A DNA stretch of 64,000 nt. Origin: Verrucomicrobiota bacterium. GTDB taxonomy: Bacteria; Verrucomicrobiota; Verrucomicrobiia; JABWAM01. Under the pieces are notes generated by a model. That model ran no database searches and had not been told where the DNA came from. It saw nothing but the letters and a program-made list of their open reading frames with translations. Shown here piece by piece: positions 21,703 to 55,998 of the stretch; the stretch's first letter is position 1; every line of letters begins with the position of its first letter. A program made the position numbers and the translations under genes. The stretch covers positions 62,001 to 126,000 of the forward strand of contig JAHFSY010000007.1 of the NCBI GenBank assembly GCA_023269615.1, read 5' to 3'.

Positions 21703-22026
21703 TCACTCCATCCCCAGCTTCTTCCGTCCTGCTTCCGAGATCATGTTCTGAGTCCATGGCGGGTCCCAGACGATTTCGACGTGGGCTTTCTCGACTCCTT
21801 CCAGGCCAAGCACCTTTGCCTCGGCGTCGCGTGAAATGCTTGCGCCCATGCTGCAACCCTGCGTGGTGAGCGTCATCTTCACGTCCACGCGTCCGCCTTC
21901 CTTGATCTGCACGTCGTAGATCAGGCCGAGGTCCACGATGTTGACGGGCATCTCGGGGTCGTAACAGTTTTTGAGCGCGCCGTAGATTTTTTCCAGCGTG
22001 AGCTCGCTCTGGGGCGTGGCATTCAT
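21703..22026 (-). CDS. SufT-like MIP18/DUF59 Fe-S assembly protein
   Basis: The 107-residue protein has the DUF59 hallmarks NCYDPEMPVNIVDLGLIYDV, a DVKMTLTTQGCSMG loop with the conserved Cys, and the late VWDPPWTQNMISEAGRK. Family members (SufT, PaaD-like, MIP18) help mature iron-sulfur proteins. The ATG at 22026 sits next to a REP-like hairpin. It is the last gene of the Fe-S cluster on this strand and lies downstream of mrp, which itself has an N-terminal DUF59 domain. Confidence 0.9.
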   Translation of the reverse strand: MNATPQSELTLEKIYGALKNCYDPEMPVNIVDLGLIYDVQIKEGGRVDVKMTLTTQGCSMGASISRDAEAKVLGLEGVEKAHVEIVWDPPWTQNMISEAGRKKLGME

Positions 22027-22114: not shown

Positions 22115-23149
22115 TCATGGAAGTCGCTTGCGAAGATTTTCCGCCACTTGCAGGAACGCCTTCCCCGCCGTCGATTTTGCACCCGACACCATCAGCGGCA
22201 CGCCGGTGTCTCCACCCTGCCGCGCCGCAATCTCCAACGGGATCTGGCCGAACAGCGGCACGTTCAACCGTGTCGCCTCGCGCTGCCCGCCGCCTTCGCC
22301 GAAAATATCGTAACGCTTCTGGTCGCTCGGACACAAAAAGTAACTCATGTTTTCCACCACGCCAAGGATCGGCACGTTCACCTTGTGAAACATCGCCGCC
22401 GCCTTGCGGACATCAATGAGGGCCACCTCCTGCGGAGTGGTCACCATCACCGCGCCGGAAAGCGGGAGCGTCTGGCAGAGCGAAAGCTGGGCGTCACCGG
22501 TGCCGGGGGGAAGATCGATCACGAGATAATCGAGCTCGCCCCATTCCACGTTGTGGACGAATTGCTGGATCGTTCGCGTGATCATCGGTCCACGCCAGAT
22601 CACGGGCGCATCGGGGTCCATGAGAAATCCCATGCTCATGAGCTTGACGCCGTAACTTGTGATGGGAATGAGCTTGTCGTTTTCGGCGGTGGGCGGCGTC
22701 TTCACATTCATCATCAGCGGAATACTTGGCCCGTAAATGTCGCAATCCATGAGACCGACTCTCGCGCCTAGTTGCGAGAGGGCGATGGCGAGATTCACTG
22801 ACACCGTGGACTTGCCCACGCCGCCCTTGCCGCTGGCGACGGCGACGGCGTAACGGATGCCCTTCACCTGATTCTGCTGGAATGCGCCGCCCGCTGGCAC
22901 GGCGGCGTGCGCGTTGACGTTCACCACGATGCTCTCAAGCCCGTCGAGATCGCGTAAAACTTCCTCGCTCTCCTTGCGAATCTGGTCGGCGATCTTGGTG
23001 TCTCCCGTGGTGAGCGTCATGTTGACGGAGCAACGCTTGTCCTGGAGAACGATCTGCTGGACGATTCCAAACGAGACAATATCACGGCTGAAGCCGGGAT
23101 ATTTCACGCGCTTGAGCGCATCACGAACCTGGTCCTGGGTGAGTGGCAT
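22115..23149 (-). CDS. mrp: Mrp/ApbC-type Fe-S carrier ATPase
   Basis: The 344-residue protein has an N-terminal DUF59 domain (residues 1-85) and a P-loop ATPase with the deviant Walker A GKGGVGKST, MDCDIYGPSIP, LDYLVIDLPPGTGD and TTPQEVALIDV. It delivers Fe-S clusters in the cytoplasm. In the motif that usually reads YFxCPxC, where two Cys hold a cluster between subunits, this protein reads YFLCPSDQKRYDIFG: only one Cys remains. It lies downstream of the iscS-like gene, separated by a large repeat element. Confidence 0.93.
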   Translation of the reverse strand: MPLTQDQVRDALKRVKYPGFSRDIVSFGIVQQIVLQDKRCSVNMTLTTGDTKIADQIRKESEEVLRDLDGLESIVVNVNAHAAVPAGGAFQQNQVKGIRYAVAVASGKGGVGKSTVSVNLAIALSQLGARVGLMDCDIYGPSIPLMMNVKTPPTAENDKLIPITSYGVKLMSMGFLMDPDAPVIWRGPMITRTIQQFVHNVEWGELDYLVIDLPPGTGDAQLSLCQTLPLSGAVMVTTPQEVALIDVRKAAAMFHKVNVPILGVVENMSYFLCPSDQKRYDIFGEGGGQREATRLNVPLFGQIPLEIAARQGGDTGVPLMVSGAKSTAGKAFLQVAENLRKRLP

Positions 23150-23197: not shown

Positions 23198-23421
23198 GAG
23201 GTTTCGCGCAACCCGCGCTACGCCGTAGGCTTCGGCGAGGTGAGAGACGCCAAGGCGCAAAGGCCCTGATTCCCTGCCACGCCAATCCGATCGTCACAGT
23301 GGTGACGATCGGATTGGCGTGGCAGACGGCCATCTCGAAATCTGCGTCCATCGGCGGAATCTGCGGAGAAATGCGGGACAAAGGGCTTTGCGCCTTGGCG
23401 TCTTTGCGAGAGGCTCTCCGA
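23198..23421. repeat. composite repeat with 24-bp perfect hairpin (copy 1)
   Basis: Outer 8-base units (GACGCCAAGGCGCAAAGG at left, CTTTGCGCCTTGGCG at right) flank a hairpin with 24-bp perfect arms (23274-23297 and 23302-23325, loop AGTG) and a TCTGCG 10-base tract (23339-23370). The arm starts CTGCCACGCCAATCC. The same order is seen at 47508-47716 and 55769-55998, with different arm sequences. Confidence 0.85.
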
Positions 23422-23434
23422 AACGAAGAGGTTG

Positions 23435-24721
23435 TCACCGCGTGGTTGAGCGTTCCTCGCGATGGCCGGAGACGGCGGCGGCGTGCTCGGTGAATGACTT
23501 GCCGATGCCGCGCGGCGCGATGGTGGAATCTATTTTTCCCTGCTGAAATTCGTCCCACATCGGCGACATGGTCCGCAGTTTCTCCACGATCTTGGCCATG
23601 GTCTCAACCACGTAATCCATGTCGGACTCCGTGTTGTCCTTGCCGAGCGTCATGATGATCGAGCCCTGCGCGAGCGCGTGATCCAGCCCGATGGCGCTGA
23701 GCACGTGCGAAACCTTGAGTGATTTGGAGACGCAGCTTCCGCCGCTGGCGACGCAGACGCCATGGTGGTCGAGAAGGAGGAGCTGGCCTTCGCCCTCGAT
23801 GAATTCCGTGGCGAGCGAGACGTTGCTGGGCGAGCGATGCGGGCCGCAGGGCGGTCCGTTGATTTTCAAATAGGGAACCTTCGTGGAAAGGCCATCCATC
23901 AGGCGCTTCTGGAGTTTTTGAACGTGCTCGATGCGCTGGGGCATTTCCTTGCGGGCGAGCTCGGCGGCGAGTCCGCCGCCCACGATGGCAGGAACATTTT
24001 CGGTGCCGGCGCGACGACCGTTTTCCTGCACGCCGCCGTGAATGATTGAGACGAGGCGCGCCTTGCGGTTGCGGTAGAGGACGCCCACGCCTTTTGGCCC
24101 GTAGAAACGATGCGGCGCAAAACTCAACGCGTTCACGCCCATCGCGCGCACGTCAATCGGCACCCAGCCCGCGCTTGCGGTGGCGTCACTGAAAAACGCG
24201 ATGCCCTTTTCATTGGCAATCTTTCCGATCTCGGCGATGGGCTGGATCGAGCCGATGTCGTGGTTCACATGGTGAACTGCGATGAGAATGGTTTTGTCCG
24301 TGATCGCGTTGCGCACATCGTCGGGGTTCAATATGCCCAGTTTGTCCACTCGCACCTTGCTGTGTGTGAAGCCCTGTTTTTCGAGGAAGGCGATGGATTC
24401 GAGGATGCTGGGATGTTCCGTCTCGGCGATGATGATGTGATTGCCCTTGCGCTGGTTGGCGTAGGCGATGCCCTTGATCGCGAGGTTGTTGGCCTCGGTG
24501 CCGCCGCTTGTGAATAGGATTTCTTCAGGGCTTTCGGCGTTGATGAGGAAGGCGAATTGCTCGCGGGCCTTGCTGAGGGCGTCACGCACCTGGAGCCCGT
24601 AACGGTGGAGGCTTGACGGGTTGCCGAAGACCTCCGTGAAATAGGGCTTCATGGCGTCGAACACCCGTGGATCCACGGGTGTGGCCGAGAGGTGATCGAG
24701 AAATACAGTGCGGGAAGCCAT
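23435..24721 (-). CDS. iscS: IscS/NifS-like protein lacking the PLP lysine
   Basis: The 428-residue protein follows cysteine desulfurases along its length: FLDHLSATPVDPRVFDAM, LFTSGGTEANNLAIKG, TEHPSILES, a GGVQENGRRAGTENV loop and the catalytic Cys loop ASGGSCVSKSLKVSHVL. At the PLP site, where IscS reads SxHKxYGPKG, it reads FAPHRFYGPKG, so the Schiff-base Lys is Arg. The nearby DATQS is DATAS, losing the Gln that contacts PLP. The C-terminus is about 40 residues longer than usual. It lies in an iscR-iscU-iscS order. It may be a scaffold partner without desulfurase activity, or it may use a different chemistry. Confidence 0.88.
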   Translation of the reverse strand: MASRTVFLDHLSATPVDPRVFDAMKPYFTEVFGNPSSLHRYGLQVRDALSKAREQFAFLINAESPEEILFTSGGTEANNLAIKGIAYANQRKGNHIIIAETEHPSILESIAFLEKQGFTHSKVRVDKLGILNPDDVRNAITDKTILIAVHHVNHDIGSIQPIAEIGKIANEKGIAFFSDATASAGWVPIDVRAMGVNALSFAPHRFYGPKGVGVLYRNRKARLVSIIHGGVQENGRRAGTENVPAIVGGGLAAELARKEMPQRIEHVQKLQKRLMDGLSTKVPYLKINGPPCGPHRSPSNVSLATEFIEGEGQLLLLDHHGVCVASGGSCVSKSLKVSHVLSAIGLDHALAQGSIIMTLGKDNTESDMDYVVETMAKIVEKLRTMSPMWDEFQQGKIDSTIAPRGIGKSFTEHAAAVSGHREERSTTR

Positions 24722-24863: not shown

Positions 24864-25292
24864 TTACTTCGTTGCAGCTGTTTCTGCGTGTTCTACCGCC
24901 TCGGGATGTTTTTTAACATAGTCCTCGAGGGCGGCCTTGAGGGCTTCCTCTGCGAGCACAGAGCAATGGATTTTTACGGGCGGGAGGCCGCCGAGGGCGT
25001 CCACGACCTCCTGGTTCGAAAACTTCAACGCATCCTCGATGGTGCGTCCCTTGATGAGCTCGGTGGCCATGGAGCTGGATGCGATGGCCGAGCCGCAGCC
25101 GAAGGTCTTGAAGCGCGCATCCTGGATTTTGCCATCCTGGATCTTGAGCGAGATTTTCATGATGTCGCCGCAGGCAGCGGCACCCACTTCGCCCACGCCG
25201 TCGGCATCCTGGATGTCGCCCATGTTGCGTGGGTTCATGAAATGGTCCATGACCTTGTCGTTGTAGAGCGTGTATTCTTTCGTGTCAGACAT
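24864..25292 (-). CDS. iscU: Fe-S cluster scaffold IscU/NifU-N type
   Basis: The 142-residue scaffold keeps all three cluster Cys: GAAACGDIMKI (with the Asp that helps release clusters), FKTFGCGSAIASSS and PVKIHCSVLAEEAL. The opening YNDKVMDHFMNPRNMG is typical. It would build [2Fe-2S] clusters with sulfur from its IscS partner in the cytoplasm. It lies 21 bases after the iscR stop. The Ala- and Glu-rich tail is a little longer than usual. Confidence 0.95.
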   Translation of the reverse strand: MSDTKEYTLYNDKVMDHFMNPRNMGDIQDADGVGEVGAAACGDIMKISLKIQDGKIQDARFKTFGCGSAIASSSMATELIKGRTIEDALKFSNQEVVDALGGLPPVKIHCSVLAEEALKAALEDYVKKHPEAVEHAETAATK

Positions 25293-25313: not shown

Positions 25314-25796
25314 CTAAATGGTTTGGAGCGCGCGGGCACGAGGGCCGTTGCCGTTGTGCAGATTGCCGCCCTGGATTCGTTTCATTACCTCGGCCTTGGG
25401 TCGCGTGAGATCAGCGAGCGTGGTGCTGCCCATGATTTCCCTCACGCGGTGTTGGGCTTCGGTAAAAAGGTCGCACAGCGTGCAGGCGTGCGTATCGTGG
25501 CAGCTGGCCGGCTCCTGCAGGCGTCGGTCGAAGGCGAGCTTGCCCTCGATGGCCTCGAGCACCTCGAGCACCGTGATTTCCGCGGAAGGGCGCGCCAGCG
25601 TGAAGCCGCCACGGATGCCGCGCTGGGAGCGCACGATGCCGGCCTTGGTCAGTGCCTGAAAAATTTTGGCGAGGAAACTCCGCGGAATGTGTTCCTCCTT
25701 GCAAACTTCATGAATCATGACCGCCTTTCCCAGACCACGGCGGGCAAGGCACGTTGCGCCCATGATGGCATATTCTCCTGCGCGTGTGATTTGCAT
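25314..25796 (-). CDS. iscR: Rrf2-family regulator, IscR-like
   Basis: The 160-residue protein has the Rrf2 winged-helix start MQITRAGEYAIMGATCLAR, the recognition region IPRSFLAKIFQALTKAGIVRSQRGIRGGF and three Cys in CHDTHACTLCDLF (C-x5-C-x2-C) that should bind a [2Fe-2S] cluster. It probably senses cluster status and controls this operon. An IscR-type palindrome lies in its own promoter at 25831-25843. The tail after residue 135 is low in structure. Confidence 0.93.
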   Translation of the reverse strand: MQITRAGEYAIMGATCLARRGLGKAVMIHEVCKEEHIPRSFLAKIFQALTKAGIVRSQRGIRGGFTLARPSAEITVLEVLEAIEGKLAFDRRLQEPASCHDTHACTLCDLFTEAQHRVREIMGSTTLADLTRPKAEVMKRIQGGNLHNGNGPRARALQTI

Positions 25797-47507: not shown

Positions 47508-47716
47508 GGTTCACGCAAAGACGCCAAGTCGCAAAGTTTTAGCCACTGAGGGGAAACCCTTGATCCCAACCCCGCCATTTTCTTCGAAGGCTACCTTCGA
47601 AGAAAATGGTGGGGTTGAATGCGGTTCTAAAATCTGCGTCTGTCTGCGTTAATCTGTGGAGGAATCCCGGGACCGAGGGACCTTTGCGCCTTTGCGTCTT
47701 TGCGCGAAACTCTCCG
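47508..47716. repeat. composite repeat with long hairpin (copy 2)
   Basis: ACGCAAAG/ACGCCAAG/TCGCAAAG at left and CTTTGCGC/CTTTGCGT/CTTTGCGC at right flank a hairpin with 23-24-bp arms and one G-T pair (47567-47590 and 47594-47617, loop CTA), then a TCTGCGTCTG/TCTGCGTTAA/TCTGTGG tract (47632-47660). It fills the OsmC-isomerase gap. Confidence 0.85.
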
Positions 47717-55768: not shown

Positions 55769-55998
55769 GAGTCTCACGCAAAGACGCAAAGACGCAAAGA
55801 CTGCCCTTGATCCCAACCGCGCCATTTTGGTTGAAAGCATGGCTTTCAATCAAAATGGCGCGGTTAGATGCCGTTCTGAAATCTGCGTCTGTCTGCGTTA
55901 ATCTGCGGAGAAAATCCGACGGGTGACAGGGCTTGGCGCCTTTGCGTCTCTCGCCTCGCCAAAGCCTACGGCGTAGCGCGGGTTGCGTGAAACTCTCC
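55769..55998. repeat. composite repeat with long hairpin (copy 3)
   Basis: ACGCAAAG units at left (55777-55800) and GCGCCTTTGCGTCTC at right flank a hairpin with 24-bp arms and one G-T pair (55815-55838 and 55842-55865, loop ATG), then TCTGCGTCTG/TCTGCGTTAA/TCTGCGGAGA (55882-55911). It fills the gap between two minus-strand genes. Confidence 0.85.

Follow-up and report, generated by a model that had tools for sequence, protein, structure and literature searches.

The locus studied here raises the question of what an IscS-like protein without the lysine that binds pyridoxal phosphate (PLP) does beside a normal IscU scaffold. The window, that is, the whole stretch of 64,000 nucleotides that was analysed, has the gene order iscR-iscU-iscS*-apbC-sufT, where IscS* is our shorthand for the putatively desulfurase-dead IscS-like protein of the window (23435–24721, minus strand) and for its relatives. 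The genes are as follows:

25314–25796, minus strand: iscR, Rrf2-family regulator with three cysteines, upstream of iscS*
24864–25292, minus strand: iscU scaffold, cluster ligands and LPPVK all present; no other NifU_N gene was found in the genome
23435–24721, minus strand: iscS*, predicted IscS/NifS-fold protein without the PLP lysine, 428 aa, ATG start, intact frame
22115–23149, minus strand: apbC/Mrp-type ATPase, probable ATG at 23149, CXXC motif reading CPSD, downstream of iscS*
21703–22026, minus strand: sufT-like gene for a DUF59 protein, probable start 22026, downstream of iscS*

The initial annotation described the neighbouring IscU and IscR as normal, and this was borne out, since both genes lie upstream on the same strand and the window IscU retains Tyr, Cys37, Asp39, Cys63, His105, Cys106 and LPPVK. 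Its description of an otherwise complete isc operon has to be withdrawn: none of hscA, hscB, fdx, iscA and iscX lies beside iscS*, and HscB is absent from the genome. A search for HscB gave no match in 18 genomes including that of the window, while the E. coli control was recovered by the same search. The order iscR-iscU-iscS*-apbC was found repeatedly across Verrucomicrobiota, and the IscUs adjoining IscS* retain Tyr3, Cys37, Asp39, Cys63, His105 and Cys106 wherever these are covered, and mostly LPPVK. Some IscS* loci are without an adjacent IscU, in genomes that bear SUF.

Several observations were made on the surroundings of iscS*. The CXXC motif is lost in the ApbC/Mrp proteins beside IscS*, reading CPSD in the window and TAPDGSR or similar elsewhere; among the IscS*-linked Verrucomicrobiota ApbCs, CPKC occurs only in genome G008 (L049/L021). 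Small MITE-like elements lie at window positions 23245–23403, 47522–47704 and 55777–55946, with inverted ends close to CGCCAAGGCGCAAAG, and ends of this kind gave 9 matches against 0.4 expected. Within the first element, which lies between iscS* and apbC, is a perfect 24-bp inverted repeat (23274–23325). Three very diverged IscS* without IscU (L046, L048 and L050) are all adjoined by a similar-looking probable membrane protein.

In IscS, Lys206 is the Schiff-base residue for PLP, as such a lysine is in class V aminotransferases in general; Gln183 bonds the PLP ring oxygen, and Arg354 binds the substrate carboxylate. With E. coli IscS as the alignment reference for residue numbering, the corresponding sites of the window protein, all on the minus strand, are the following:

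24260–24262, minus strand: His154, replacing IscS Asn155
24173–24187, minus strand: DATAS, residues 179–183, with IscS Gln183 replaced by Ala182 and Asp180 retained as Asp179
24107–24109, minus strand: CGT codon for Arg205, at the PLP-lysine site (E. coli IscS Lys206)
23732–23734, minus strand: Cys330, the flexible-loop cysteine (E. coli Cys328), retained in 146 of 146 aligned sequences
23654–23656, minus strand: Ile356, replacing the substrate-carboxylate Arg354

The translation, with its motifs TEHPS, DATAS, SFAPHRFYGPKGVG and SGGSCVSKS, together with the codon itself, confirmed what had been noticed earlier, namely Arg (CGT) at the PLP-lysine site, the change of DATQS to DATAS, and the retention of the Cys loop and of the TEHPS histidine. 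The earlier account of the active site was right on the losses of Lys and Gln and overlooked two more, Asn155 to His154 and Arg354 to Ile356. Retained residues in the alignment (IscS*/E. coli) are T75/T76, H103/H104, D179/D180, H204/H205, T240/T243 and C330/C328. A lysine supplied from a shifted nearby position was considered and rejected, as the motif alignment is gap-free and has no lysine in its place. In E. coli IscS, mutants of D180, Q183 and K206 are reported to lose activity or stall, and H104 mutants were also studied (PMC9978102). The best NCBIfam model for IscS* is NifS TIGR03402, at 450 bits against a curated cut-off of 530.75, and the IscS model TIGR02006 gives 379.8 bits, also below its cut-off (643.2).

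IscS* is nevertheless predicted to keep the IscS/NifS fold. The AlphaFold2 model has a pLDDT of 90.3, with the Cys-loop residues 328–333 below 50, and among PDB entries it most closely matches human NFS1 in ISCU complexes, A. fulgidus IscS and E. coli IscS (TM 0.84–0.88 by query length and 0.93–0.97 by target length).

The replacement of the lysine is not peculiar to the window. In an alignment of 146 rows, in which some genomes are represented twice, all four residues (K206, Q183, R354 and N155) are present in 31 sequences; Q183 is absent in 115, among which K206 is also absent in 111 and R354 in 113. The four rows with Lys but without Q183 and R354 are three members of family f11 and one Nitrospirae record. 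Since the f11 members (L038, L134 and L135, from genomes G016, G243 and G248) have Lys at the site and are without N155, Q183 and R354, the lysine alone is not diagnostic of an active enzyme. Across the Verrucomicrobiota clade the site is mostly basic: Arg as a rule, Lys in f11 and His once (L151, from G219).

A pseudogene or a sequencing error, the latter raised by the initial annotation for the CGT codon, might be suspected from the altered catalytic residue, and is hardly credible. Arg stands at the same site in orthologues of 55–83% identity from the same family, order and class and in named Verrucomicrobiota MAGs, so that the identical change recurs in many independent assemblies, and the frame is intact. 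Close IscS* pairs have a low dN/dS of about 0.03–0.14 (NG86) with dS near saturation, and a YN00 value was obtained for one pair only; judged from these ratios, the IscS* clade is under purifying selection.

A tree was inferred after masking of the active-site columns. The Verrucomicrobiota IscS* form a single clade (support 100/100), in agreement with an earlier quick tree, while A. fulgidus IscS and two Bathyarchaeota sequences form a separate clade (100/98) placed among normal enzymes. A third Lys-less set, weakly held together, comprises Aminicenantes/Acidobacteria, WOR-3, Endomicrobiia, Hydrogenothermaceae and other bins. In the best tree, the archaeal loss of Lys thus appears on a different branch from the Verrucomicrobiota loss. 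The AU test rejected a grouping of Verrucomicrobiota with archaea only marginally (p 0.039). With every Lys-less group joined into one, p was 0.098, so the loss may still have had a single origin.

The closest known system is A. fulgidus IscS (PDB 4eb5, 4eb7, 4hvk and 4r5f), and the comparison with Archaeoglobus made in the initial annotation was apt in that this protein also lacks the lysine, with the qualification that in the best tree its loss falls on another branch. Like IscS*, it has Lys replaced, Gln183 changed to Ala (DATAS), the loop Cys retained and IscU as partner, and the IscS* model aligns to it with a TM of 0.96–0.97 to target. The features that mark the A. fulgidus type, namely loss of Lys, Gln183 and Arg354, retention of Cys and a gene next to IscU, are all found in IscS*. 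The two differ in the replacements, which are K206D and R354L in A. fulgidus and Arg and Ile in IscS*, and in that the archaeal protein retains Asn155 whereas the bacterial one has His154. A. fulgidus IscS is reported to be without activity, and its Cys has been proposed as a cluster ligand (PMC7585200). By its description, IscS1 of Methanosarcina acetivorans is similar, being also without the catalytic Lys and paired with IscU1 (PMC7585200); unlike IscS*, it is archaeal and one of three IscSU pairs. With the canonical group I desulfurases E. coli IscS and human NFS1, IscS* has in common the fold, the IscU linkage, the loop Cys and, by homology, a dimer-type architecture; it differs from them in the loss of K206, Q183, R354 and N155 and in falling under the TIGR03402/TIGR02006 cut-offs. 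The SMS system of Methanocaldococcus jannaschii, for which sulfide is usable (PMC12192291), likewise assembles clusters without a dedicated active desulfurase partner, but is based on SufBC and not on IscU.

In the genome of the window (4.48 Mb, 131 contigs, 94.8% complete), the window's IscU is the single NifU_N gene, and SUFBD gave no match. The genome has two COX1-family genes and therefore probably respires oxygen. In a class sample of 286 MAG genomes, true (high-scoring) IscU occurs in 30, and all 30 have IscS*. SUFBD is missing in 29 of these 30 and in 11 of the 256 genomes without IscU (Fisher p about 1e-29, with genomes treated as independent despite their kinship). Judged by gene content, almost all IscU-bearing genomes of the class seem to have no cluster-assembly system besides IscU/IscS*. 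G088 is the only sample genome having both true IscU and SUFBD.

That loss of the lysine in itself means loss of SUF was also considered and is not supported by the comparison. SUFBD was found in none of 16 Lys-less genomes of other phyla and in none of three others, these genomes being possibly partial; among Lys-bearing IscS controls of other phyla, it was present in 6 of 20 and absent in 14. As these controls are mostly without SUFBD as well, SUF absence goes with ISC generally.

A second, normal desulfurase, which the initial annotation proposed to look for elsewhere in the genome, does exist: two further IscS/NifS proteins with intact Lys, Gln, Cys and Arg are encoded there. Unlinked desulfurases of the type of L002, the window genome's own copy, occur in all 30 IscU genomes, that copy being counted among the 30, with 60–100% identity to L002. 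All 30 retain intact K, Q and C motifs, and 29 an intact Arg motif, that of L210 being unreadable because the match ends at residue 328. The neighbourhood of L002 is not conserved among genomes and gave no clue to its role.

A further pointer to IscU comes from the C-terminus of IscS*, namely from this feature:

23435–23560, minus strand: C-terminal tail past the MSP motif, long in loci with an adjacent IscU and short in those without

Among 58 loci with IscU, the tail after the SP motif has a median of 36 aa, compared with 9.5 aa among 24 loci that have no IscU; these counts leave out loci without IscU in which the SP motif was not found, most of which end soon after. In E. coli, the IscU docking site is near the IscS C-terminus (PMC2854127). 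The contrast in tail length, drawn between groups of related sequences, is suggestive.

Taken together, we consider it likely that IscS* is a retired IscS kept as an obligate partner of IscU, with Cys330 acting as ligand or relay and sulfur being supplied in trans. What the sequences contribute to this reading is the loss of four residues, the retained Cys, the linkage to an intact IscU and the absence of SUF, and from them we infer inactivity, IscU docking and the sulfur source. IscS* would no longer bind and cleave substrate cysteine via PLP and would dock on IscU in the manner of IscS, and Cys330 would ligate the nascent [2Fe-2S] cluster, as in A. fulgidus, or pass on persulfide. The most likely source of the sulfur would be the unlinked canonical L002-type desulfurase, acting in trans, with free sulfide as the alternative. 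Of the earlier proposal of a scaffold partner that takes sulfide from elsewhere, the scaffold partner and the outside sulfur fit; "sulfide" is better replaced by sulfur delivered by another protein, as each IscU genome examined encodes a desulfurase that looks intact. Sulfide is still a possible donor, since H2S can feed IscU in anoxic E. coli without IscS (PMC13015791).

The initial annotation also offered an enzyme with altered PLP chemistry, in which PLP would be held non-covalently and another amine or Arg205 would support slow desulfuration or another reaction. As T75, H103 and D179 are retained, PLP may still bind IscS*; H204 and T240 of the pocket are kept as well, and the mostly basic character of the site in Verrucomicrobiota fits this proposal. 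Against it, K206, Q183, R354 and N155 are gone jointly, the Lys-bearing f11 members are still without the other three residues, and E. coli IscS mutated at D180, Q183 or K206 is reported to be inactive or stalled (PMC9978102), so we regard it as improbable. To about the same degree, it is unlikely that IscS* is an adapter that heterodimerises with the L002-type desulfurase and brings an active site to IscU: the presence of that desulfurase in all IscU genomes and the dimeric nature of IscS, whose fold is retained in the model, speak for such an adapter, whereas IscS* and L002 are only about 39% identical and their genes are unlinked.

Because IscS* is present in SUF-bearing genomes without an adjacent IscU, it may have another role. 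That it chiefly serves ApbC, with the IscU linkage being secondary, would agree with the adjoining apbC at many iscU-less loci (e.g., L042, L043, L049, L165 and L171). This is less probable still, given the variable neighbours of distant IscS* members, the constancy of IscU as partner in SUF-less genomes and the retention of the IscU-side tail only with IscU.

A few archaea are known to have a desulfurase-dead IscS, and these have other cluster routes. No published description of one in Verrucomicrobiota was found in the open literature and the few subscription papers that our search covered. Here, the apparently dead IscS partners the only IscU of a broad bacterial group that is mostly without SUF. 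With somewhat better than even confidence, we propose that in this group of Verrucomicrobiota, some with terminal oxidases, the sole Fe-S system consists of IscU and a non-working desulfurase, that sulfur release and assembly, which IscS unites in other organisms, are split between two proteins, and that bacteria and archaea have seen such a retirement on more than one occasion. If true, IscS would have a role in cluster assembly apart from sulfur release, strong enough to outlast catalysis, and these bacteria would offer a natural system for testing that role.
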